Shown here one piece after another: positions 17,243 through 29,527 of a DNA stretch of 30,391 nt; the stretch's first letter is position 1, and each line of letters starts with the position of its first letter. The DNA is from a virus, in the IMG/VR virus record IMGVR_UViG_3300027788_000049, positions 1 to 30,391 of that record; one strand, given 5' to 3'. Under the pieces are notes generated by a model, which saw nothing but the letters and a program-made list of their open reading frames with translations, was not told the DNA's origin and ran no database searches. The position numbers and the translations under genes were made by a program.

Positions 17243-17500
17243 ATGGCAAATGAATTCGACATTTTTAATGTAAGTGTAAAAGATTTAGACACTGGTGAAA
17301 GACCTTCCACAGCAGGAAGTGATTTATACACACCTAAACCAGATCAAGGACAAGACGGTATCTACCGATCTTTAATTAGGTTTCTACCTAATGCTAAAAA
17401 CCCAAGAAAACCATTCGAACGTAAGTATGTCTACTGGCTAGAAGACAGAGAAGGAAACGGCTTTTTCGCTGATTCCCCTTCAATATGTTCTTTAAACTAA
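17243..17500 (+). CDS. gp32-like single-stranded DNA-binding protein, N-terminal part
   Basis: 85 codons matching the start of T4 gp32: a short N-terminal region, then SLIRFLPN with R46-F47-L48-P49 at the same positions as in T4 gp32 (AVIRFLPS), followed by a strand-rich segment KYVYWLEDREGNGFFADSPS. The frame then reads ICSLN and stops at TAA 17498-17500, inside what should be the OB-fold core, where T4 gp32 carries its zinc-binding loop. The rest of the protein continues in the -1 frame. The last two sense codons form the heptamer T TTA AAC, a canonical -1 slippery site directly before the stop. Alone, this fragment could not make a complete OB fold. It follows a long leader and its own TATATAA element. 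Confidence 0.75.
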   Translation: MANEFDIFNVSVKDLDTGERPSTAGSDLYTPKPDQGQDGIYRSLIRFLPNAKNPRKPFERKYVYWLEDREGNGFFADSPSICSLN

Positions 17501-18132
17501 GAAACTCTGAATCTGCAGTAGATAAAAAGATGTCAGAAGGTTTAAAGCGTAGAGAAGTATTCTATGCATTGGTACAGATCGTAAAGGATCCACAAAACAG
17601 AGACTTAGAAGGACAAGTTAAAATTATGAAATTCGGTTATAAAATCAAAACTAAAATTGATGAAGAACTGAATCCACAATTTGATGAACCAACTCAAGTA
17701 TTTGATCCATTTGAAGGAAAAAACTTTGAATTAGTAATTTCTAAGAAAGGTGGTTTTCCAAATTATGACTCATGTAAATTTCATGGTAATAAATCTCCAA
17801 TGACAATCGGTGGTGAACCTGTTGCTAATGATGATGCAAGCCGTAAAGCAATTTTAGAATTGTTAGGTACTGCACCAGAATTAACAAGTTGGGGTTATAA
17901 AGCATGGGATGATTCAATCAGAGGAAAGGTAATGAATGTATTATCTCAATTTACATCTCCAGGTGATTCAATCCAAAACATCACAAGATCAAAACCAGCA
18001 CCAGTTAATACAAAAGTAACTGAAGCTGCTGCTGTACAAGCAACAACTGAAACAAAATCTGAAACTCAACCTGCAGCAGGAACTGAGAAAAAAGAAGATT
18101 TTGATGATTTCATTAATGGTTTAGATCTTTAA
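17485..18132 (+). CDS. gp32-like single-stranded DNA-binding protein, C-terminal part
   Basis: The continuation of the SSB in the -1 frame. An ATG is available at 17485, but the conserved sequence (FFKLRNSESAVDKK) simply reads through it. The part includes FYALVQIVKDPQNRDLEGQV, which aligns with T4 gp32 YWANILVVKDPAAPENEG, then KKGGFPNYDSCKF (T4 SGFSNYDESKF), a variable linker and an acidic C-terminus EDFDDFINGLDL like T4's LDDLLNDL tail that recruits partner proteins. Joined to the N-terminal part by a -1 shift, the product would be 296 aa, against 301 in T4, with about eight residues fewer between RFLP and VKDP. The two frames overlap by 16 bases. Either a frameshifted, internally deleted gp32 or an assembly error. 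Confidence 0.8.
   Translation: MFFKLRNSESAVDKKMSEGLKRREVFYALVQIVKDPQNRDLEGQVKIMKFGYKIKTKIDEELNPQFDEPTQVFDPFEGKNFELVISKKGGFPNYDSCKFHGNKSPMTIGGEPVANDDASRKAILELLGTAPELTSWGYKAWDDSIRGKVMNVLSQFTSPGDSIQNITRSKPAPVNTKVTEAAAVQATTETKSETQPAAGTEKKEDFDDFINGLDL
17491..17497 (+). other. Slippery heptamer T TTA AAC at the ssb frame junction
   Basis: TTTAAAC at 17491-17497 is read as T-TTA-AAC in the first ssb frame and is followed immediately by TAA. A -1 slip gives TTT-AAA-CTA, which is exactly the frame of the downstream ssb part. The heptamer is a known -1 frameshift signal in other systems. It also spells the conserved residues F-K-L of the second part, so its presence may be incidental. Confidence 0.4.
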
Positions 18133-18137
18133 TAATT

Positions 18138-19214
18138 ATGGCAGAAGAAGTAATAATATCTTCTGAAATGAAAGCTCGGATCATTGATAAAGTGGTCCGA
18201 GTTCTTCATACTAATCACTCCCATCCGGAGAAAAGAAGAATTTTAGAAAGTAAAGGAAGATTAAATATGGCATGTCCATATTGTGGTGATTCAACAACTA
18301 CTCCTAGGAAAAAAAGAGGCAATTTATATTGGAATGATTTATACTTCCATTGTTATAATTGTTCTGCTCATTCTTCGTTAGATGTTTTTTTAGCTGATCA
18401 TCATCAAAACTTTGAAGGTGATGATAGAATAGATGTAATAAATTACATAAAGGAAAATCGTAAACACTTTTCATTAGGTGAAAGTTTAGACTTTTATCTT
18501 TTTGATAAAGCTAAAGAATTAGCATTAACTTTTGATGAAATAGCAATAGGGTTTAATGTATATGCAATAAACACGTTAACATACCAAGCTTATCCTTATT
18601 TAAAAAGTAGATTACTTCATCATAAAACTGATAGATTTGCGTTTGATCCTCGTCGTAGAGAATTATATGTTTTTAATTTAACACCAGATGGTAAGATATT
18701 AGGTTTTCAAACTAGAGCATTAGGTAGTGATAATACTGGTCCTAAATATAAAACTTGGAATATTGAAAGAATATATGATAGATTAAAAAGACCATTAGAA
18801 GTAACTGAAGAGGAATTAGATAATTTAAATAAAATATCAATGTTGTTCGGTATTTTAACAGTTGATATGTCTAGAGATTTTTCTATATTTGAAGGTCCAA
18901 TCGATGCAATGTTTATGAATAATTCAATTGGCTTAACTGGTGTTAAGAAGCAAATAATTGAATTTAATGAAATACCTACAGCAAGATATTTCTTTGATAA
19001 TGATATGGAAGGTAAAACTAGAATGATTGAAAAATTAAAAGGTGGTCAAACTGTATTTATGTGGACTCAGTTTTTAAAAGACTTTGATATTCCTGCAAGA
19101 AAAGTAAAAGATTTAAACGATTTAGTAAAATATGAATTTAAAAATCGAACAGGCTGCTTAAGCAACCTAGATAAATATTTTACAAACAATTCATTAGATA
19201 TTATTTTTATATAA
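18138..19214 (+). CDS. DNA primase, T4 gp61-like
   Basis: A 358-residue primase. A zinc-binding domain lies at residues 46-75 with Cys46-x2-Cys49 (MACPYCGDS) and Cys72-x2-Cys75 (FHCYNCSAHSS), the four-cysteine ribbon of the bacterial and T4 primase type. A Toprim-like catalytic core follows, with Glu252 in IFEGPIDAMFM and Asp287/Asp289 in YFFDNDMEGKTRM, the metal-binding residues of the family. Length is close to T4 gp61 (342 aa). It makes the RNA primers for lagging-strand synthesis and should partner with a gp41-type helicase, which is not in this window. It starts 5 bases after the ssb stop and shares a TAATG overlap with the next gene, placing it in an ssb-primase-UvsY-UvsW unit. Confidence 0.85.
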   Translation: MAEEVIISSEMKARIIDKVVRVLHTNHSHPEKRRILESKGRLNMACPYCGDSTTTPRKKRGNLYWNDLYFHCYNCSAHSSLDVFLADHHQNFEGDDRIDVINYIKENRKHFSLGESLDFYLFDKAKELALTFDEIAIGFNVYAINTLTYQAYPYLKSRLLHHKTDRFAFDPRRRELYVFNLTPDGKILGFQTRALGSDNTGPKYKTWNIERIYDRLKRPLEVTEEELDNLNKISMLFGILTVDMSRDFSIFEGPIDAMFMNNSIGLTGVKKQIIEFNEIPTARYFFDNDMEGKTRMIEKLKGGQTVFMWTQFLKDFDIPARKVKDLNDLVKYEFKNRTGCLSNLDKYFTNNSLDIIFI

Positions 19215-21441: not shown

Positions 21442-23100
21442 ATGAAGTCAATCAAAAAGTTTTCTGCAATGTCTGCTAACGATCAATCGATCACAGAATC
21501 TGCAAAAGTAACGAAAGAGGCTGTTGATGAATTGATCAAAAAGATTGGTTTTAACAGTATAGATGAGTTAAAGAAAGAAAAAGATCTTCTTTCTAAACTC
21601 GAAGCAATGTCAAAAACATTTGCAAAAAGTAATGATATATCTGAGGATGAACTTGAAGAAGATCGTGCTGATGATATTGAAGATGAAATGAATGCAAAAG
21701 GCAAAACTAAATCTTTAGAAGGTACTAAAGATAAAAAAGGTGATGAAGAAGTAGTAGCATCTGAAGTAGAAGAAGTAGAAGAAGATACTGCTGATGATAT
21801 TGAGGCTGAGGTATTAGCTATTGGTAAACCTAAATCTTTAGAAGATGAAGCAGATGAATTAGTATCTGGTGATCAAGAAATAACAAAGGAAGTTCCTGCT
21901 GAAGCTGATGAGGTTGAGGATGAGGATGGTGTTGATGTTGCTTCTGAAGAAAAAGAAACTCCTAAAGCTACAAAAAGAATTATGGCTTTTGAAGATTTCA
22001 TTAAAGAAAAAGAAGAAACTATAAATAAGAACATTAATTATCGTGATGATAATGAAGAAGAAGAAGACTATGCAGTACCTGTAGCAGCATCTGCTGATGC
22101 TCTTGCTGAATCTAAAGAATCTCGTGGAAAAGAAGATGAAAAAGAAGGTGATGAACTAGAAGATAAAGGTGATAAGAAAGTTGATTCTGAAGATGATAAA
22201 GAAAAAGCAGACCATTATAAAGGAGCTGTTAAATCTGATGATGCTCAAATTAAATCTTTAAAGAAAGATGCTAAGTTTGATAAAGAAGAAGAGGAAGATG
22301 CTGAAAAGAACGAATCTACTATTATGAATTTTGCAAGCTTTGTAAATGAAGCTTATGACAAAGTTGTATTTGGTGGTAATAAAGGCGATAAGTCTAAAAC
22401 TAAAGAAGATGAAGAAGACTTTGAAGATGAAGATAAAACTGACGAAAAGTTTGATGATGTAGTTCTTGGTGGTAATAAAGGTGATAAGTCTAAAACTAAA
22501 GAAGGAGAAGAAGATTACGAAGATGAAGACAAAAAGGATGAAGCATATGATGTAGTAACTTTAGGTGGTAATAAAGGCGATAAGTCTAAAACCAAAAAAG
22601 GTGAAGAAGATTATGAAGATGATTCAGACGAATCAGTTGAAGAAGGTGTAGCTGAAGTAATTACTAAAGTTGAAGGTGATGAAATTAAAGATGAAGAAGC
22701 TGGAGCTGATGGAATGGCAATCCCTGTAATTAAAGGTGATGGTTCAGAAACTGCTGCTGGAATTGCTGGTGATATTATGGATAAAGGTAAAGTTAAAAAC
22801 TTATCTGCATTAGCTGGTAAATTAGTTACAACAGATCAAAAGATTACTGATGTAGTAAAAGGTGAATCTGATAATGTTAAAGACGGTCATGATATTCCTG
22901 TAGTAGAAACTATTGTTAATGAAGCGGATATTACTTCTGACGATCAGTTTAAAGAATATGCAATGAAAATGTTAAAAGATGCATTCGGTGCTGATTTTGA
23001 TGAAACAAAAGCAACTGAAACTGCTGATGGTTTAATTTCTAAGTACGGTGAAGATTACGGCGCAATGGTCGGAGCTTTACAATCTACAATGGGATCTTAA
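21442..23100 (+). CDS. Acidic repeat protein, likely prohead core/internal protein, 552 aa
   Basis: A highly charged, low-complexity protein dominated by E, D and K. A helical N-terminal part (to about residue 70) is followed by a duplicated 22-residue block (residues 72-93 and 113-134, sharing ADDIE and KSLE). Internal peptides at Met181 (MAFEDFIKEKEE) and Met295 (MNFASFVNEAYD) resemble T4 capsid-targeting sequences. Three copies of a 32-residue repeat (from residue 311, each starting GGNKGDKSKTK) come next. The C-terminal domain, ending with FGADFDETKATETADG and a stretch closing LQSTMGS, is ordered and distinct. Extreme acidity and several L/I/V-x-E sites fit a scaffold or head-interior protein cut by a prohead protease. 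No capsid gene is adjacent, so the role is inferred. Confidence 0.6.
   Translation: MKSIKKFSAMSANDQSITESAKVTKEAVDELIKKIGFNSIDELKKEKDLLSKLEAMSKTFAKSNDISEDELEEDRADDIEDEMNAKGKTKSLEGTKDKKGDEEVVASEVEEVEEDTADDIEAEVLAIGKPKSLEDEADELVSGDQEITKEVPAEADEVEDEDGVDVASEEKETPKATKRIMAFEDFIKEKEETINKNINYRDDNEEEEDYAVPVAASADALAESKESRGKEDEKEGDELEDKGDKKVDSEDDKEKADHYKGAVKSDDAQIKSLKKDAKFDKEEEEDAEKNESTIMNFASFVNEAYDKVVFGGNKGDKSKTKEDEEDFEDEDKTDEKFDDVVLGGNKGDKSKTKEGEEDYEDEDKKDEAYDVVTLGGNKGDKSKTKKGEEDYEDDSDESVEEGVAEVITKVEGDEIKDEEAGADGMAIPVIKGDGSETAAGIAGDIMDKGKVKNLSALAGKLVTTDQKITDVVKGESDNVKDGHDIPVVETIVNEADITSDDQFKEYAMKMLKDAFGADFDETKATETADGLISKYGEDYGAMVGALQSTMGS
22372..22623 (+). repeat. 96-bp in-frame tandem repeat, about 2.6 copies
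   Basis: Units start at 22372, 22468 and 22564, exactly 96 bases apart. The opening GGTGGTAATAAAGG and the following GATAAGTCTAAAAC are almost unchanged between copies. Each unit encodes 32 residues of the 552-aa protein; the third copy decays after about 20 codons. High nucleotide identity suggests recent duplication or gene conversion. Confidence 0.9.
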
Positions 23101-23130: not shown

Positions 23131-24402
23131 ATGAAACATATAAAATTGTTTGAACAATGGCTGACTGACAAAAGTCAGCCATTGTTGTTTGAAGGTGGTG
23201 CTGCTGGTCATATGCAACATCCATTTGATGATAAAGATTTAACCTTTGGTGATTTCAAAGCGATGGTTGATGCTGGTCTTAGAGGTAAATTAGATTTTGA
23301 AGAAGATCCAACTGAAAAGACAGATGGCCAAAATGTATTTGCAACTATTCAAAATGGTAAAGTAAAGTTTGCTCGAAATAAAACAGAATTAAAAAACCCT
23401 ATGTCTCTTTCAGAATTTAGAAATAAATTCGAAGGGCATGCAAGTAAATTAGTACAAGATACATTTCAATTTGCTGCTGATGATTTAGCTAAACTATTAA
23501 CGAAGCTTTCTCCAGAAGATCAAGAAAAGTATTTTAATAATGGAAAGGACTTTATGAACATGGAATTAATCTATTCATTAAATCCTAATGTTATTCATTA
23601 TGATACTGATGTTATCCAATTTCATGGAATAAAAGAAACTGATGGTGAAGGTAATATAATTGGAACTAATAACAGACCTGCTAAAGAAATAGTAAATATA
23701 CTCCAAAAGGTAAAATCGGATATTGGTAAAACATTTAAAATTATACCACCTAAAGTTATAAAATTACAACAAGATGTTGATTTTTCAAAGAATAAGAAAA
23801 AATTTATAAATCAAGTTAATGCTTTAGAAAAAAGATATGGTTTAACTGATGGTGATTCCGTTGCAAGATATCATGAAATGTGGTGGAGAGAATTAATAGA
23901 TAAAGAATTTCCAACATTAACTCAAGATGTTAAAGAAGGTTTACTTAGAAGATGGGCATACGGTGATAAAAAGAGTTTAAACATGAGATCTTTAGCTAAA
24001 CAAGCTGGACCTAAAGAAGCAGCATTAGTTAAAAAGTTTGATAAAGAAGATGTTGCTAAAAAGTATAAAGAAAACATTAGACCATTTGAAGATTTATTTT
24101 TAGAGTTAGGTTCTATCATTATGAAAAATGCTTCTGAGTTTTTAGCAGCTAACCCGTCAGATGAAGCTCAGCGCCTAAGAAGAGAAATAGAAACACAAGC
24201 CAATAAGATTAAAAAGACTGGTGGCGTAGAACAAATTAAAAAGGTTGAAGCTGAACTTGCAAGATTAAGTCGTATCGGTGGAATAGAATCTATATTTCCT
24301 ACAGAAGGTATTGTATTTAAATATAAAGGAAAGATTTATAAATTAACTGGAACATTTGCTGCTATTAATCAATTGCTTGGTATTATTAAATTTGGTAGAT
24401 AG
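23131..24402 (+). CDS. Ligase-fold nucleotidyltransferase with internal-protein-like N-terminus, 423 aa
   Basis: Shows the core motifs of the covalent nucleotidyltransferase (DNA/RNA ligase, capping enzyme) superfamily: motif I is KTDG at residues 63-66 in TEKTDGQNVF, with Lys63 the likely nucleotide-accepting lysine. A motif III-like strand is FMNMELIYS, motif IV is EGIVFK at residues 392-397, and motif V is the strand KIYKLTG with Lys404. The catalytic core is split by a long charged helical insert (about residues 195-375), unusual for a simple ligase. The N-terminus (MKHIKLFEQWLTDK ... LLFE-GG) is like a capsid-targeting peptide with an L-F-E-G cleavage candidate. The reaction is presumably adenylyl or guanylyl transfer, possibly RNA ligation, with unknown substrate. 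Packaging in the head is inferred. Confidence 0.65.
   Translation: MKHIKLFEQWLTDKSQPLLFEGGAAGHMQHPFDDKDLTFGDFKAMVDAGLRGKLDFEEDPTEKTDGQNVFATIQNGKVKFARNKTELKNPMSLSEFRNKFEGHASKLVQDTFQFAADDLAKLLTKLSPEDQEKYFNNGKDFMNMELIYSLNPNVIHYDTDVIQFHGIKETDGEGNIIGTNNRPAKEIVNILQKVKSDIGKTFKIIPPKVIKLQQDVDFSKNKKKFINQVNALEKRYGLTDGDSVARYHEMWWRELIDKEFPTLTQDVKEGLLRRWAYGDKKSLNMRSLAKQAGPKEAALVKKFDKEDVAKKYKENIRPFEDLFLELGSIIMKNASEFLAANPSDEAQRLRREIETQANKIKKTGGVEQIKKVEAELARLSRIGGIESIFPTEGIVFKYKGKIYKLTGTFAAINQLLGIIKFGR
23146..23193 (+). repeat. 14-bp perfect hairpin flanked by in-frame 9-bp direct repeats
   Basis: AACAATGGCTGACT (23153-23166) and AGTCAGCCATTGTT (23173-23186) form a perfect 14-bp stem with loop GACAAA, near the start of the 423-aa gene. 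It is bracketed by two copies of TTGTTTGAA (23146-23154 and 23185-23193), 39 bases apart and in the same frame, both encoding L-F-E. It is locally much richer in G and C than its surroundings. Confidence 0.85.
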
Positions 24403-24849: not shown

Positions 24850-25287
24850 ATGAAAAACTTTAATGAATTTGTAAATGAGAAGTTTAAATATGAATCTTCT
24901 TTTATAAATGGAAAAAAGATAAGTTCTTCATTTCAAGGTAGTACTTCTAGTATGAATGACTTCATAAAACAAATTAAAAGTTTACCTGCAACATTAGAAT
25001 CTATTAAAATACCAATAGAAACATCAGCATTTAATCCTGAGAATAAAACTTTCAAAGGCCCTATATCATCAGGTGATAAAAATCAAATTATTAAAATTAT
25101 TAAAGATATAACGAAAGACTTTAAAAAAGAAGGTGATCCTATTACTAAATATGGCATCAGATCTTTTTATGGAGTTTTAAGTGGTGCAAAAGAAGTAACC
25201 GATGCATGTTATATTAGATTCAGTACTGAAGGCCATAGCAAGTTCGGTAAAGCAATGAGCAGAGGTGATTACGGTCCATTAGATTAA
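24850..25287 (+). CDS. Small protein with internal-protein-like N-terminus, 145 aa
   Basis: Begins MKNFNEFVNEKFKYES, one of the clearest matches in the window to the T4 targeting peptide pattern, with V-N-E as cleavage candidate at residues 8-10. The rest is a small mixed alpha/beta domain with basic helices (KNQIIKIIKDITKDFKKEGD) and a closing segment FSTEGHSKFGKAMSRGDYG. No catalytic motif or membrane segment. It is followed by the strongest terminator in the window and is co-expressed with the 118-aa gene just upstream. Function not recognised. Confidence 0.6.
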   Translation: MKNFNEFVNEKFKYESSFINGKKISSSFQGSTSSMNDFIKQIKSLPATLESIKIPIETSAFNPENKTFKGPISSGDKNQIIKIIKDITKDFKKEGDPITKYGIRSFYGVLSGAKEVTDACYIRFSTEGHSKFGKAMSRGDYGPLD

Positions 25288-25315: not shown

Positions 25316-25344
25316 AAAGGTGAGCTAAGGTCTCATCTTTTTTT
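25316..25344 (+). terminator. Rho-independent terminator
   Basis: AAAGGTGAG (25316-25324) pairs with CTCATCTTT (25332-25340) across a 7-base loop, with one G-U pair, and runs into a seven-T tract (25338-25344). It lies 28 bases after the stop of the 145-aa gene and 23 bases before the next TATATAA element, cleanly separating two transcription units. Confidence 0.8.
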
Positions 25345-25396: not shown

Positions 25397-28189
25397 ATGA
25401 AAGAGTTAACAAACATATATAAAGTAGCAGGACAACGGTTCGTAGATGATCTATTTAAAGATTACCTATTAGTGACTGAAAAATTGTCAGGATCATCATT
25501 CTCCTTTGAAAGGCATGGTGGTGAATTGAGATTTTTTAAAGGTAGCAACAAGCAGCCTATTAATTTAGTGGACAGAACACTAATGATGTATTATGAACCT
25601 GCTATTCAATACATGCTTTCCCAAACAACAGATAATTTAGAAGACTTACCAGAATATTGGAGATTTTGTTTCCAATACTTTGTTAATAATCAACCTGGTG
25701 CAATTGAATATGATAATATGCCACAGAATGGTTTAATACTTACTCATATTCAAATTAGAAATGCAAAAGGTAAAATTGCTAAAGTTATAGAAGATCCTAG
25801 AGTATTAAGAGACTGGGCATCTGCATTTCAAGTTACTCCACTTATTCCAATCTTTAGTGGTTATTTAAAAGAAGAGCAAAAAAGAAAGATTAGAGAATTT
25901 CTTTCTACCCCTAAAGAAGATCATTTAGAAGTATTTGGTACAAGTTCATTTGCAAAATATTTAATTACTTGTTTAAATCCAACAATAGAACAAACAACAT
26001 TACAAAATAATTTAGATAAACCTATAGATTCTATTATCTTTAAGTTTTTTAAACAAGGAACTAACCAAGTCTTTGCAGCTAAAATGATTGATCCTTATAC
26101 TGAGGCTTTAATGAAAGAAAGAGAGCCTATCGATTTAAGAAGAGCTCCTGCTGATATTAATGAAATACTTTTATTAGATATTTTAGCCTTTATAGAAGAA
26201 AGAGGATTAAGAGGTGGCGAACTATTAACTTCAATACCAAGCGAAAGGTATTTAGAATTAATGTCAAACCTATTTAATGATTACGTTGCAAAAAGAGGAG
26301 TTGATCTACAAAAAATAGATATTGAAAAAGCTGAATTTGCAAAAGGCCCTGAATTTAATTTAAATTTAGATTTAATTAAAAATAGCAGAACAAGAGAAAT
26401 ACTACAAAAATCTCCTAAACTCCAAAACTTATATAAAATAATGGTAGGTTCTTTAAGAAAGAAAAGAAACCCTAACCGAATAGGTGCGGTAATGACAGCA
26501 TCTGTAATAGAAGATTTTAATAAATTGGTAAATAAAATATCTGACACTATAAGTAAAGAAACTGATGGTAAGTTTAAAACCTTTGGTGACTATTTAAATA
26601 ATAAAGTTACAGAAGAAATAGATCATAAAGATTTAGAAGAACTAATTGTTGAAGAAAAAGTATTAAACTATAATAAATTTATAGATTTAGCTAAGGTTGA
26701 TATTTTAAATGAAGCTAAGAAGATAACCAAAAAAAGTATAGAGGAATTTTGGAAAGATGGCTACAAGAAATATTTTAAGTCAACTGATGTGACAGGTGTA
26801 TCTTCAAGAAAAGGTGATACTGGAGAAGTACTTAGAGCTAACTTTGGACCTAATGATGGCACAGCAGAAAAATCTATAAAAGATTTTTTATTTAAGCATG
26901 CTGGGATTAAACCAAATACCTATAAAATAGAAAGTTTACCAGTCGGTGTTATTTCATCTGATTATTCTGCTTATAAAATAATAATACAAAGAGGTGTTAA
27001 GAATAAGCTAGGGCAAGATTATGGAATTAGTGATTTCTTTATTATAACAAATAGATATAAGATTTCTAAAAAGACTGGAGAGGCTTCAGTTATCGGTAGA
27101 AAAGATTTGACACCAGATAGATTAGGTTTACCAAAACATGAATATCACAATGCAGCTGCGCTATATGCTAATGTAGAACCTTATATTAAAGCTTCAAAAT
27201 ATCCTGATAATTATAAAGAGTTTATTTTACAATCAACTCGTGAAGTTATGGATAGTAGTAATAGTGGAAAATTTACTAATTTTAATAAATATGCAAATGC
27301 ACCAACACAAATCTTAAATTATAAAATTACAGAATCTTTGTTTGATGGTATAGATCAATTATCAATTCAAAACTTTCAAAATGATTATGGTGAAATATTA
27401 GGTGGTTTTATGTTATTTAATTTATTACAAGATACTGGTAAAGGTATAAGATATCCAATCAATTCTAATGAAAAGCTAGTAGACTTTTATTTTGATAATT
27501 ACGCAATATCATCAAAAGCAGGTAGGGGTGGTACTCCTAGTGGTGATACTATTATTCAAAGAATATCTTCAATGTACTTAGATGATAAATTAGATTTTAG
27601 TACAATACAAGAACAAGACTTTTATAATTATGTAATAAAAGTATGGACCAATCCAATAAAATTAGCAAGAAGTGGTATTTATAATACTGTAATGAATTTG
27701 TGCAGTGTAAACATTGTAGATAAAGCTGATTCAGGTTATTGGTATTTAATAGCAGAATCTAAACTTCAGCCTAATTTATTAACACAAGATTCAGTAGTGT
27801 CTTTCTTAGATGAATTACATTTAGATGAAAGTAAGTTTAAAGAATTCTTAAGTACATTATGGACAAGGTCAGGTATGTCTTGGAATGACAAAAAATTAAA
27901 TGCAGCATATGATGGATATATTGCATTAGGTAAAAATAGAGTAGGTATAGTATTTTATCCTTTAATGGTTGAGGCTACTAAAATACTTAATGAAAAATAT
28001 ACAAAGCAATTAACACAGTATTCACAATTAGTAACTGATGTTAAACAATTATACTTAGATGTTTTAGTTAAGAAAGGATTGTTTCAATTTAAAACAGTTC
28101 CATTTTCTAAAGCTAAATTTGTATTTGAACAAAAAGGAAGTATGAGTAACCCTTTTAACGCTAATATGGGTATAAGAATACTAAAGTAA
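25397..28189 (+). CDS. 930-aa protein with ligase-like N-terminal domain
   Basis: Residues 1 to about 260 look like an RNA-ligase-type nucleotidyltransferase: motif I-like EKLSGSSFSF with Lys29, a motif III-like block FCFQYFVNNQPGAIEYDNMP, a motif IV-like strand DSIIFKFF lacking the usual E-G, and a motif V-like FAAKMIDP. Lys29 is kept, but Ser31 replaces the common Asp, so activity is uncertain. A helical region follows, with NYNKFIDLAKVDILNEAKK near residue 423 (L-N-E-A site). A C-terminal half from about residue 440 includes LVDFYFDNYAISSKAGRGG, where Asp696 and Lys707 are spaced like a PD-(D/E)xK nuclease core. Possibly a multi-domain nucleic-acid enzyme, either virion-associated or an early effector. 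It follows a terminator and a promoter candidate. Confidence 0.5.
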   Translation: MKELTNIYKVAGQRFVDDLFKDYLLVTEKLSGSSFSFERHGGELRFFKGSNKQPINLVDRTLMMYYEPAIQYMLSQTTDNLEDLPEYWRFCFQYFVNNQPGAIEYDNMPQNGLILTHIQIRNAKGKIAKVIEDPRVLRDWASAFQVTPLIPIFSGYLKEEQKRKIREFLSTPKEDHLEVFGTSSFAKYLITCLNPTIEQTTLQNNLDKPIDSIIFKFFKQGTNQVFAAKMIDPYTEALMKEREPIDLRRAPADINEILLLDILAFIEERGLRGGELLTSIPSERYLELMSNLFNDYVAKRGVDLQKIDIEKAEFAKGPEFNLNLDLIKNSRTREILQKSPKLQNLYKIMVGSLRKKRNPNRIGAVMTASVIEDFNKLVNKISDTISKETDGKFKTFGDYLNNKVTEEIDHKDLEELIVEEKVLNYNKFIDLAKVDILNEAKKITKKSIEEFWKDGYKKYFKSTDVTGVSSRKGDTGEVLRANFGPNDGTAEKSIKDFLFKHAGIKPNTYKIESLPVGVISSDYSAYKIIIQRGVKNKLGQDYGISDFFIITNRYKISKKTGEASVIGRKDLTPDRLGLPKHEYHNAAALYANVEPYIKASKYPDNYKEFILQSTREVMDSSNSGKFTNFNKYANAPTQILNYKITESLFDGIDQLSIQNFQNDYGEILGGFMLFNLLQDTGKGIRYPINSNEKLVDFYFDNYAISSKAGRGGTPSGDTIIQRISSMYLDDKLDFSTIQEQDFYNYVIKVWTNPIKLARSGIYNTVMNLCSVNIVDKADSGYWYLIAESKLQPNLLTQDSVVSFLDELHLDESKFKEFLSTLWTRSGMSWNDKKLNAAYDGYIALGKNRVGIVFYPLMVEATKILNEKYTKQLTQYSQLVTDVKQLYLDVLVKKGLFQFKTVPFSKAKFVFEQKGSMSNPFNANMGIRILK

Positions 28190-28204: not shown

Positions 28205-29527
28205 ATGGAGAATTTAAATGATTTAAATGATTTCTTAAATGAAAAGAGAGTAACTGTTAAGAGAAGGTACACTGAGGCCCACCCGGCTAAAAATGTATCA
28301 ACAGCTGCACGTGTAAGAAGTACTATTTTAGATTCTATTGCTGATGGTCATATTACTGAAGAAGAGATGACTAGAATACTTTCTGAACTTAAAGCTCATA
28401 AGAGATGGTTAAGTAGAAACAAAGGTTTATTTAATATTAGTGAAGATCAAGCAGGAATTAAAACTTTTTCGCTTTCTCCTTATGGAATAAGAGTAAAGAA
28501 TAAAACAACTGTACTTAATGAAGCTCTTAATGTTCCACATAAAGAAAAAGGAAAGAAGCCAGTAAATATGTTTGTTGGTAGATTTCAACCTTTTACGTTA
28601 GGGCATGTTAAAGTATTTGAAAAAATGTATAAAGAAAATGGTTTACCTGTAGTTGTTTATATGGTAAGAGGTGGGAAGGCTGATCCAGAGAAAAGACCAT
28701 TTGATGAAGATATGCAACAAGCAATGTTTGCTAAAATGAAAAAGCAATATCCATTTTTAGAAGCTAGCTTTGTAGTTCCTAATGGAGCAATTGACACAAT
28801 GTTTGCAGCAGCAAGACCAGCATATGAACCTATGATGTGGGGTTATGGTACTGATAGAAAGAAAGCATACGGTAATATGATTAATAAACAATCATATCGA
28901 GATGACTTAGGAGTTGATCCAAGTTTTAAGGGTTATGAAATAACAAGAGGTGATGAAAATATTTCAGCATCTAAAGTTAGGAATGCTTTAAAGATAGATG
29001 ATGAAAAGACTTTTAAGAAAATGACTCCTAAAAGTATACATGGATTTTATAAACCATTACAAACTATAATGCAACCAATAAAAGAAAACACTAATATGAA
29101 AAATTTAAAATCACTAACAAACTTTAGTATTAATGAAGCAAAGTTTAATAAGAAGAAGTTAATGAAGGCCATGAAAAAAGATGATGGTATGATTCAATTA
29201 GGTAATGGTCAAGAATATGTTATCTATAATCCTAATAACGGTAATGATGATAATACTGATATGTGGAAAGATAAAGTTATTTTTGGTTTAGACCAAGATG
29301 GTGAAGAACATGAAATTGAATATTCTGATATTGTTAGTTATAATGAAAGTACAATCAATGAAGAGTATATTGAATTAATGCCAGAACTAGAAGAGGCCTT
29401 AGGTAGAATGGCTCAAGATTGGCAACAGTGGAAAAGAGGACCACTAACAGATCCTAAAGATATTAAACCAGCAGCAAAAGAATTAACATCATATGTTATG
29501 AGCTGGTTAAAAAGAAACATAAAGTAA
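28205..29527 (+). CDS. TxGH nucleotidylyltransferase with targeting-like N-terminus, 440 aa
   Basis: Residues about 115-285 form a nucleotidylyltransferase of the cytidylyltransferase/NMN-adenylyltransferase superfamily: GRFQPFTLGH at residues 125-134 is the (H/T)xGH signature, in the Thr form also seen in phosphopantetheine adenylyltransferase, and ISASKVR at residues 253-259 is the ISxTxxR-type phosphate-binding motif. The N-terminus (MENLNDLNDFLNEK) is targeting-like with L-N-E. A second such peptide starts at Met298 (MKNLKSLTNFSINEAKF) and precedes a separate C-terminal domain of about 125 residues. The substrate (NMN, CTP-linked or other) cannot be read from sequence. Some large phages encode NAD-salvage enzymes of this type. 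Its stop overlaps the next start (TAATG). Confidence 0.68.
   Translation: MENLNDLNDFLNEKRVTVKRRYTEAHPAKNVSTAARVRSTILDSIADGHITEEEMTRILSELKAHKRWLSRNKGLFNISEDQAGIKTFSLSPYGIRVKNKTTVLNEALNVPHKEKGKKPVNMFVGRFQPFTLGHVKVFEKMYKENGLPVVVYMVRGGKADPEKRPFDEDMQQAMFAKMKKQYPFLEASFVVPNGAIDTMFAAARPAYEPMMWGYGTDRKKAYGNMINKQSYRDDLGVDPSFKGYEITRGDENISASKVRNALKIDDEKTFKKMTPKSIHGFYKPLQTIMQPIKENTNMKNLKSLTNFSINEAKFNKKKLMKAMKKDDGMIQLGNGQEYVIYNPNNGNDDNTDMWKDKVIFGLDQDGEEHEIEYSDIVSYNESTINEEYIELMPELEEALGRMAQDWQQWKRGPLTDPKDIKPAAKELTSYVMSWLKRNIK

Follow-up and report, generated by a model that had tools for sequence, protein, structure and literature searches.

A conserved hairpin within the first codons of a phage ligase-like gene, a probable intrinsic terminator for the gene upstream

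The ligase-like gene, its neighbours and its N-terminal peptide

The window analysed here is a stretch of 30,391 nucleotides from an IMG/VR virus record (IMGVR_UViG_3300027788_000049). Positions 23131–24402 of its plus strand encode a 423-amino-acid RNA-ligase-like protein with an invariant KTDG motif, and the first codons of this gene carry the hairpin described below. The four residues (K63-T64-D65-G66) are identical in all 24 aligned proteins, and KxDG is the nucleotidyl-transfer motif of the RNA/DNA ligase superfamily. A structure model of the protein (pLDDT 68.7) retrieved weak matches, with RNA ligases in the top five places of the Foldseek search (best E 0.016) and ligases in the top 35 rows of VIA-align (best Z 7.6, 4.7 Å, 199 residues). 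Pfam returned only a sub-threshold hit to Med28 (E 0.17), no PHROG matched the protein, and no solved structure was significantly matched by sequence. The hairpin-bearing gene is likely ligase-like.

Immediately upstream lies a gene for an acidic protein of 552 residues with several internal LxE motifs (21442–23100, plus strand), the proposed target of the terminator. No family matched this protein, which is possibly a scaffold or core protein. A short gene separates the acidic and ligase genes in 11 of the 34 distinct stem-bearing junctions, the hairpin staying inside the ligase gene; here, as in the other junction comparisons, one locus was counted per identical 120-nt junction. Searching for the acidic gene by its C-terminal signature found only part of the loci, and these counts rest on the junction comparisons. 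Small genes with targeting-like N-termini occupy this position in L004, L014, L016, L017, L024, L035, L053 and L074, which suggests a cargo-gene hotspot ahead of the ligase gene.

The arms of the hairpin, 23153–23166 (codons 8–12, plus strand) and 23173–23186 (codons 15–19), are each 14 nt long and 100% complementary, and enclose a 6-nt loop at 23167–23172 that encodes Asp13-Lys14. The stem spans codons 8–19, its first base lying 22 nt downstream of the A of the ATG (23131). An inverted-repeat search confirmed the perfect stem and six-base loop described in the initial annotation. Among inverted repeats of at least 13 nt whose arms lie within 120 nt, it was the only one in the window with full complementarity; nor does the window contain a second copy of the hairpin. 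The accompanying description of the stem as GC-rich holds against the AT-rich background only, since 6 of its 14 pairs are G-C. Folding 120 nt around the hairpin gave −31 kcal/mol, whereas shuffled sequences averaged −19.3 (z −3.93) and none of 200 did as well. An Rfam search of the window produced no match, and in the open-licence literature searched, PMC2988021 included, no description of the hairpin was found.

The same bases fall within a probable capsid-targeting propeptide, MKHIKLFEQWLTDKSQPLLFE, encoded by codons 1–21 (23131–23193, plus strand). Two 9-nt copies of TTGTTTGAA, 39 nt apart as originally noted, encode Leu6-Phe7-Glu8 (23146–23154, plus strand) and Leu19-Phe20-Glu21 (23185–23193, plus strand); they look like the two LxE motifs (E8 and E21) of a T4-type capsid-targeting peptide, the second forming a predicted prohead-protease site, LFE/GG (the slash marking the cut). 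According to PMC9026906, the T4 capsid targeting sequence is cut after L/I-x-E. The phage peptide resembles that sequence and the gp21 propeptide in being N-terminal and short, in ending in L/I-x-E and in being one of many such proteins in the phage (PMC9026906); it differs from the T4 sequence in being longer (21 residues, with two LxE motifs) and in overlapping an RNA hairpin, and its cleavage, putatively by a gp21-like protease, is a prediction. The targeting-like appearance that the initial annotation had attributed to the N-terminus is thereby borne out. Similar N-termini occur in other proteins of the window (MKTFKDYLTEE, MKNFNEFVNEK and MENLNDLNDFLNEK), the last belonging to a cytidylyltransferase-like protein (PHROG 3041) encoded downstream of the ligase-like gene at 28205–29527.

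Relatives were represented by the best 80 of 325, which together with the window gave 81 genes. In all 81, an N-terminal extension precedes EGGAAGHM (or EGGASGHM). It follows MK[HY]xKLFE[QE]W...[FL]EGGAAGHM or a near variant in 55 genes, which have the stem-type N-terminus (L052 being shortened and diverged), and is a different peptide, mostly ..F..F..E.....LILE/GG, in the other 26. Directly before GGAAGHM, the stem clade has LFE or LLE; elsewhere the residues before E are mostly LIL, LLL or similar, with a few cases of SIM or LVM. Removal of identical coding sequences reduced the 55 stem-type genes to 38.

The exact repeats flanking the stem in the window had led to suggestions that a small hairpin element had inserted with duplication of its target site, or that the segment is a slippage or ribosome-bypass cassette whose 13 codons can be removed. 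Across the 81 genes, none lacks the 39-base segment and no empty site was seen; relatives with other N-termini likewise have a spacer before LxE/GG, the only length change within the clade is of one codon (L052, L082), and the short form MKHIKLFE-GGAAGHM was not found among the relatives examined. The two 9-mers are identical in just 11 of the 38 distinct sequences (window included), and the direct repeat is therefore not a conserved feature. In the T4 gene 60 bypassing element, a hairpin lies near a repeated sequence in a phage coding region. The hairpin and nearby repeat described here share that arrangement, but the spacer is conserved as protein, the stem carries no stop codon and the paired sites are not conserved. 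Because no examined relative is without the 39 bases, insertion, a slippage cassette and ribosome bypass are all unsupported, and we regard this group of explanations as hardly credible.

As to whether the hairpin is mobile, a strict pattern search of IMG/VR returned 65 stretches, 64 of them at the start of a ligase-like gene and one unrelated (L088), and we rejected that idea. In six long records, the strict pattern occurs once in each of three and is absent from the other three.

Selection on the stem

Conservation of the residues with loss of the stem had been named at the outset as the pattern expected from simple coding constraint. The opposite was seen, with a stem kept in all 38 distinct sequences, window included. 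Codons in the arms are invariant (Leu11 CTG in 37/37, Gln16 CAG in 37/37, Pro17 CCA in 38/38), while the loop codon Asp13 varies freely between GAC and GAT; in the remainder of these genes, 2.9% of leucines are encoded by CTG and 17.5% of glutamines by CAG. Of the 18 sequences with Ala (GCN) in place of Thr (ACT) at residue 12, 17 encode Ser15 by AGC rather than AGT, and the remaining one has a G-U pair. Among 23 distinct rows, two-sided changes were found at 6 of 13 pairs (20 cells), a level reached by none of 500 shuffles; the shuffles gave 3.1 pairs, and slid pairing never exceeded 2 pairs and 5 cells. At one position of the stem, 11 rows have AU, 10 have GC and 2 have GU. In the divergent relative L052 the stem is rewritten altogether, as GTTAGC/GCTGAG.

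A scan of the collection with a pattern that did not require the 3′ arm gave a similar picture. It returned 66 stretches. One encodes an unrelated protein and one is cut by a contig end; both arms can be read in the other 64, all of them ligase genes, of which 63 have the exact stem and one has the rewritten stem.

Taken together, these patterns show that the stem is selected beyond protein coding, in keeping with the initial view of a functional hairpin rather than a coding accident. Complementary codons might still have arisen by chance and become nearly identical through recent spread, as the well-conserved peptide and the movement of the 5′ segment between lineages (L074, below) would allow. 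That account is contradicted by the rare invariant arm codons, the free loop, the two-sided changes and the rewritten stem of L052, and we consider it very improbable. A general caution is that the preceding gene can constrain synonymous sites at phage gene starts.

In a tree of the protein body (56 distinct proteins, strongly gapped ones left out), the stem-bearing label needs two changes, with L074 grouping among the stem-less relatives. Compared with the window, the DNA of L074 is 93–100% identical over codons 1–28 and 66–74% identical thereafter, and the 5′ module was probably moved by recombination.

A candidate terminator inside the start of the next gene

We consider it probable, from sequence features, that the hairpin and the U-rich codons behind it form an intrinsic (Rho-independent) terminator and attenuator for the upstream gene, placed inside the start of the next gene. 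A stable short-loop stem, a U-rich tract after it and a position following a gene are all found here, and termination is predicted on that basis. In stem-bearing loci, the hairpin starts 27–63 nt past the upstream stop codon and is nearly the only strong perfect stem between 3 kb upstream of the ligase start and 1.4 kb from it. Each of the 34 distinct stem-bearing junctions has a score of −10.2 kcal/mol or below; L013 and L052 are missing from the list of perfect stems because that list takes only perfect stems of at least 8 pairs.

The U-rich tract of the window (23182–23190, plus strand) covers codons 18–20, Leu-Leu-Phe, with 7 T in 9 bases; the L-F of the LFE motif is read from it as well. 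Ahead of the peptide's final Glu codon, the nine bases contain 8 T in 27 of the 38 stem-bearing sequences (mean 7.5 of 9) and never more than 6 in 24 sequences without the stem. Several relatives, too, reach just 6 of 9. Because Leu and Phe codons are U-rich anyway, coding may account for part of the tract. When the window's stem is folded to its full 14 bp, it pairs part of this tract, and the remaining tail, GTTTGAAGGT, has 4 T in 10.

Other hairpins of the group are terminator-like by position. A scan of a 181-kb relative for perfect stems with 9 bp or more, four or more of them G-C pairs, found five places; four are intergenic, 12–30 nt past a stop codon and with T-rich tails, and the fifth is the ligase-gene hairpin, 41 nt past the upstream stop. 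A looser scan of three long relatives found 11, 23 and 19 intergenic, sense-strand terminator-like hairpins, numbers from which regular use of intrinsic terminators seems apparent. The window itself has an ordinary intergenic example with a T-rich tail at 25316–25340 (plus strand), after the gene ending at 25287. More generally, terminator-like hairpins are enriched at gene starts on both strands, 9 of 10 sense hits and 10 of 17 antisense controls lying in the first 170 nt, with starts taken as first-ATG guesses.

At the stem-less junctions, 7 of 21 distinct ones (L054, L056, L060, L064, L065, L079 and L080, several of them alike in sequence) have a terminator-like intergenic hairpin ahead of the ligase gene. 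In the other 14, the stretch scanned upstream of the gene contains none, and a terminator is accordingly not required at stem-less junctions.

Under the terminator reading, terminated transcripts would come from the acidic, possibly scaffold-like gene or, in some relatives, from the small gene after it, and most polymerases would stop about 60–65 nt past the ligase ATG. Within the first 21 codons, the same bases would specify two parts of the capsid-targeting peptide, its linker and its LFE cleavage motif. Read-through, by chance or with a ribosome already covering the stem, would allow the ligase and the downstream genes to be made. Since only the polymerases that read through would make ligase, the terminator would act also as an attenuator, holding the ligase below the upstream gene. 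Polymerase termination at the stem, its frequency and its effect on ligase dose are all predictions. Two consequences count against the terminator reading: such a terminator would leave non-stop messages and would lower the expression of its own gene.

The alternative is a post-transcriptional element that slows early elongation or binds a phage protein and so tunes how efficiently the ligase mRNA is translated or how stable it is, without ending transcription; the RNA brake on translation suggested in the initial annotation is one form of it. The hairpin starts 22–27 nt into the coding sequence, just past an initiating ribosome, and it accompanies the ligase gene regardless of which gene precedes it, as the junctions with an intervening short gene illustrate. 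Two relatives (L067 and L073) also have a hairpin at a similar place, within the targeting-peptide codons of the ligase gene; it is perfect but of different sequence (GAGCTCAG with CTGAGCTC) and lacks a T tract. Against a post-transcriptional element, position and tail mark the remaining perfect hairpins of the 181-kb relative as terminators, the U-rich tract is enriched in stem-bearing sequences, and relatives carry intergenic terminator-like hairpins at the same junction. This context points to transcription termination instead, and we judge a purely post-transcriptional role unlikely.

The terminator reading is consistent with what PMC4824070 reports for E. coli. There, tR2 placed no more than 100 bp into a coding region terminates efficiently, the ribosome not having caught up yet, and ribosomes at an upstream stop codon repress a terminator only up to a distance of about 27 nt (PMC4824070). 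We propose a terminator combined with an attenuator because the phage element falls within both E. coli limits, lying less than 100 bp into the coding region and 27 nt or more past the stop. Like lambda tR2 as presented in that source, it has a stem of 9–14 pairs, a short loop and a U-rich 3′ side, and it occupies the position from which efficient termination is reported in E. coli (PMC4824070). In contrast to the tR2 experiment described there, the phage hairpin sits in a natural full-length gene, is conserved by compensatory changes and encodes a probable targeting peptide bearing a protease site, and its termination is predicted. Leader-peptide attenuators such as pyrBI (PMC4824070) likewise place a terminator in translated sequence, where the position of the ribosome can govern its action; pyrBI has a separate short leader peptide, whereas in the phage the downstream protein itself begins in this sequence, and nothing points to a sensing mechanism.

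A second embedded hairpin, in the primase gene

Another hairpin of this kind lies at 18168–18209 (plus strand), in codons 11–24 of the primase gene (assigned by PHROG 47), after a gene for a gp32-type single-strand DNA-binding protein (17485–18132, plus strand; Pfam gp32, PHROG SSB). Among primase matches of at least 60% identity that reach the gene start, it is kept in 43 (some being overlapping loci of one contig), in 14 distinct versions. Five pairs show two-sided changes, with none of 500 shuffles as high, and one pair is T-A in 8 versions and C-G in 6 through synonymous changes on both sides. The hairpin is absent from two distant homologues; one has a terminator-like hairpin with a T-run, AAAGGGCTAATTAAACTTAGCCCTTTTTTT, in the gap before the primase gene, and the other a different hairpin inside the gene.

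Hairpins in coding sequence were also scored across the 181-kb relative, where 34 of 182 ORFs could be taken, the others giving no hairpin with enough relatives. Among the 141 in-gene hairpins of these 34 genes, four keep at least 85% of their pairs, and the ligase and primase hairpins are the strongest two of the four.

As a rule, T4-like phages make much scaffold protein and gp32 but little ligase and primase. It is possible, though we offer this tentatively, that the clade uses dual-coding attenuators at junctions between probably abundant structural or DNA-binding proteins and low-copy enzymes (scaffold-like/ligase and gp32/primase), a terminator having moved from the gap into the first codons of the enzyme gene. 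On this proposal, the targeting peptide and the dose control of a packaged ligase would share 40 bases, and the 5′ module would be exchanged between lineages as a unit. Terminator-like hairpins in coding sequence are easily dismissed as false positives; because compensatory changes maintain them in many natural sequences, the two hairpins of the window are a clear candidate for coding sequence that doubles as a terminator. Such embedded hairpins would also offer a natural test of the competition between translation and termination at gene starts.

The gp32-like gene appears split in two overlapping frames (17243–17500 and 17485–18132), by a frameshift or a sequence error, and is a single 921-nt frame (g158_10004) in a relative. 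A 930-residue protein (25397–28189) has EKLSG near its start, which we take to be possibly another ligase-type motif. The UvsW-like helicase is 56% identical to that of one uncultured huge phage and about 33% identical to those of Tenacibaculum phages and cyanophages.
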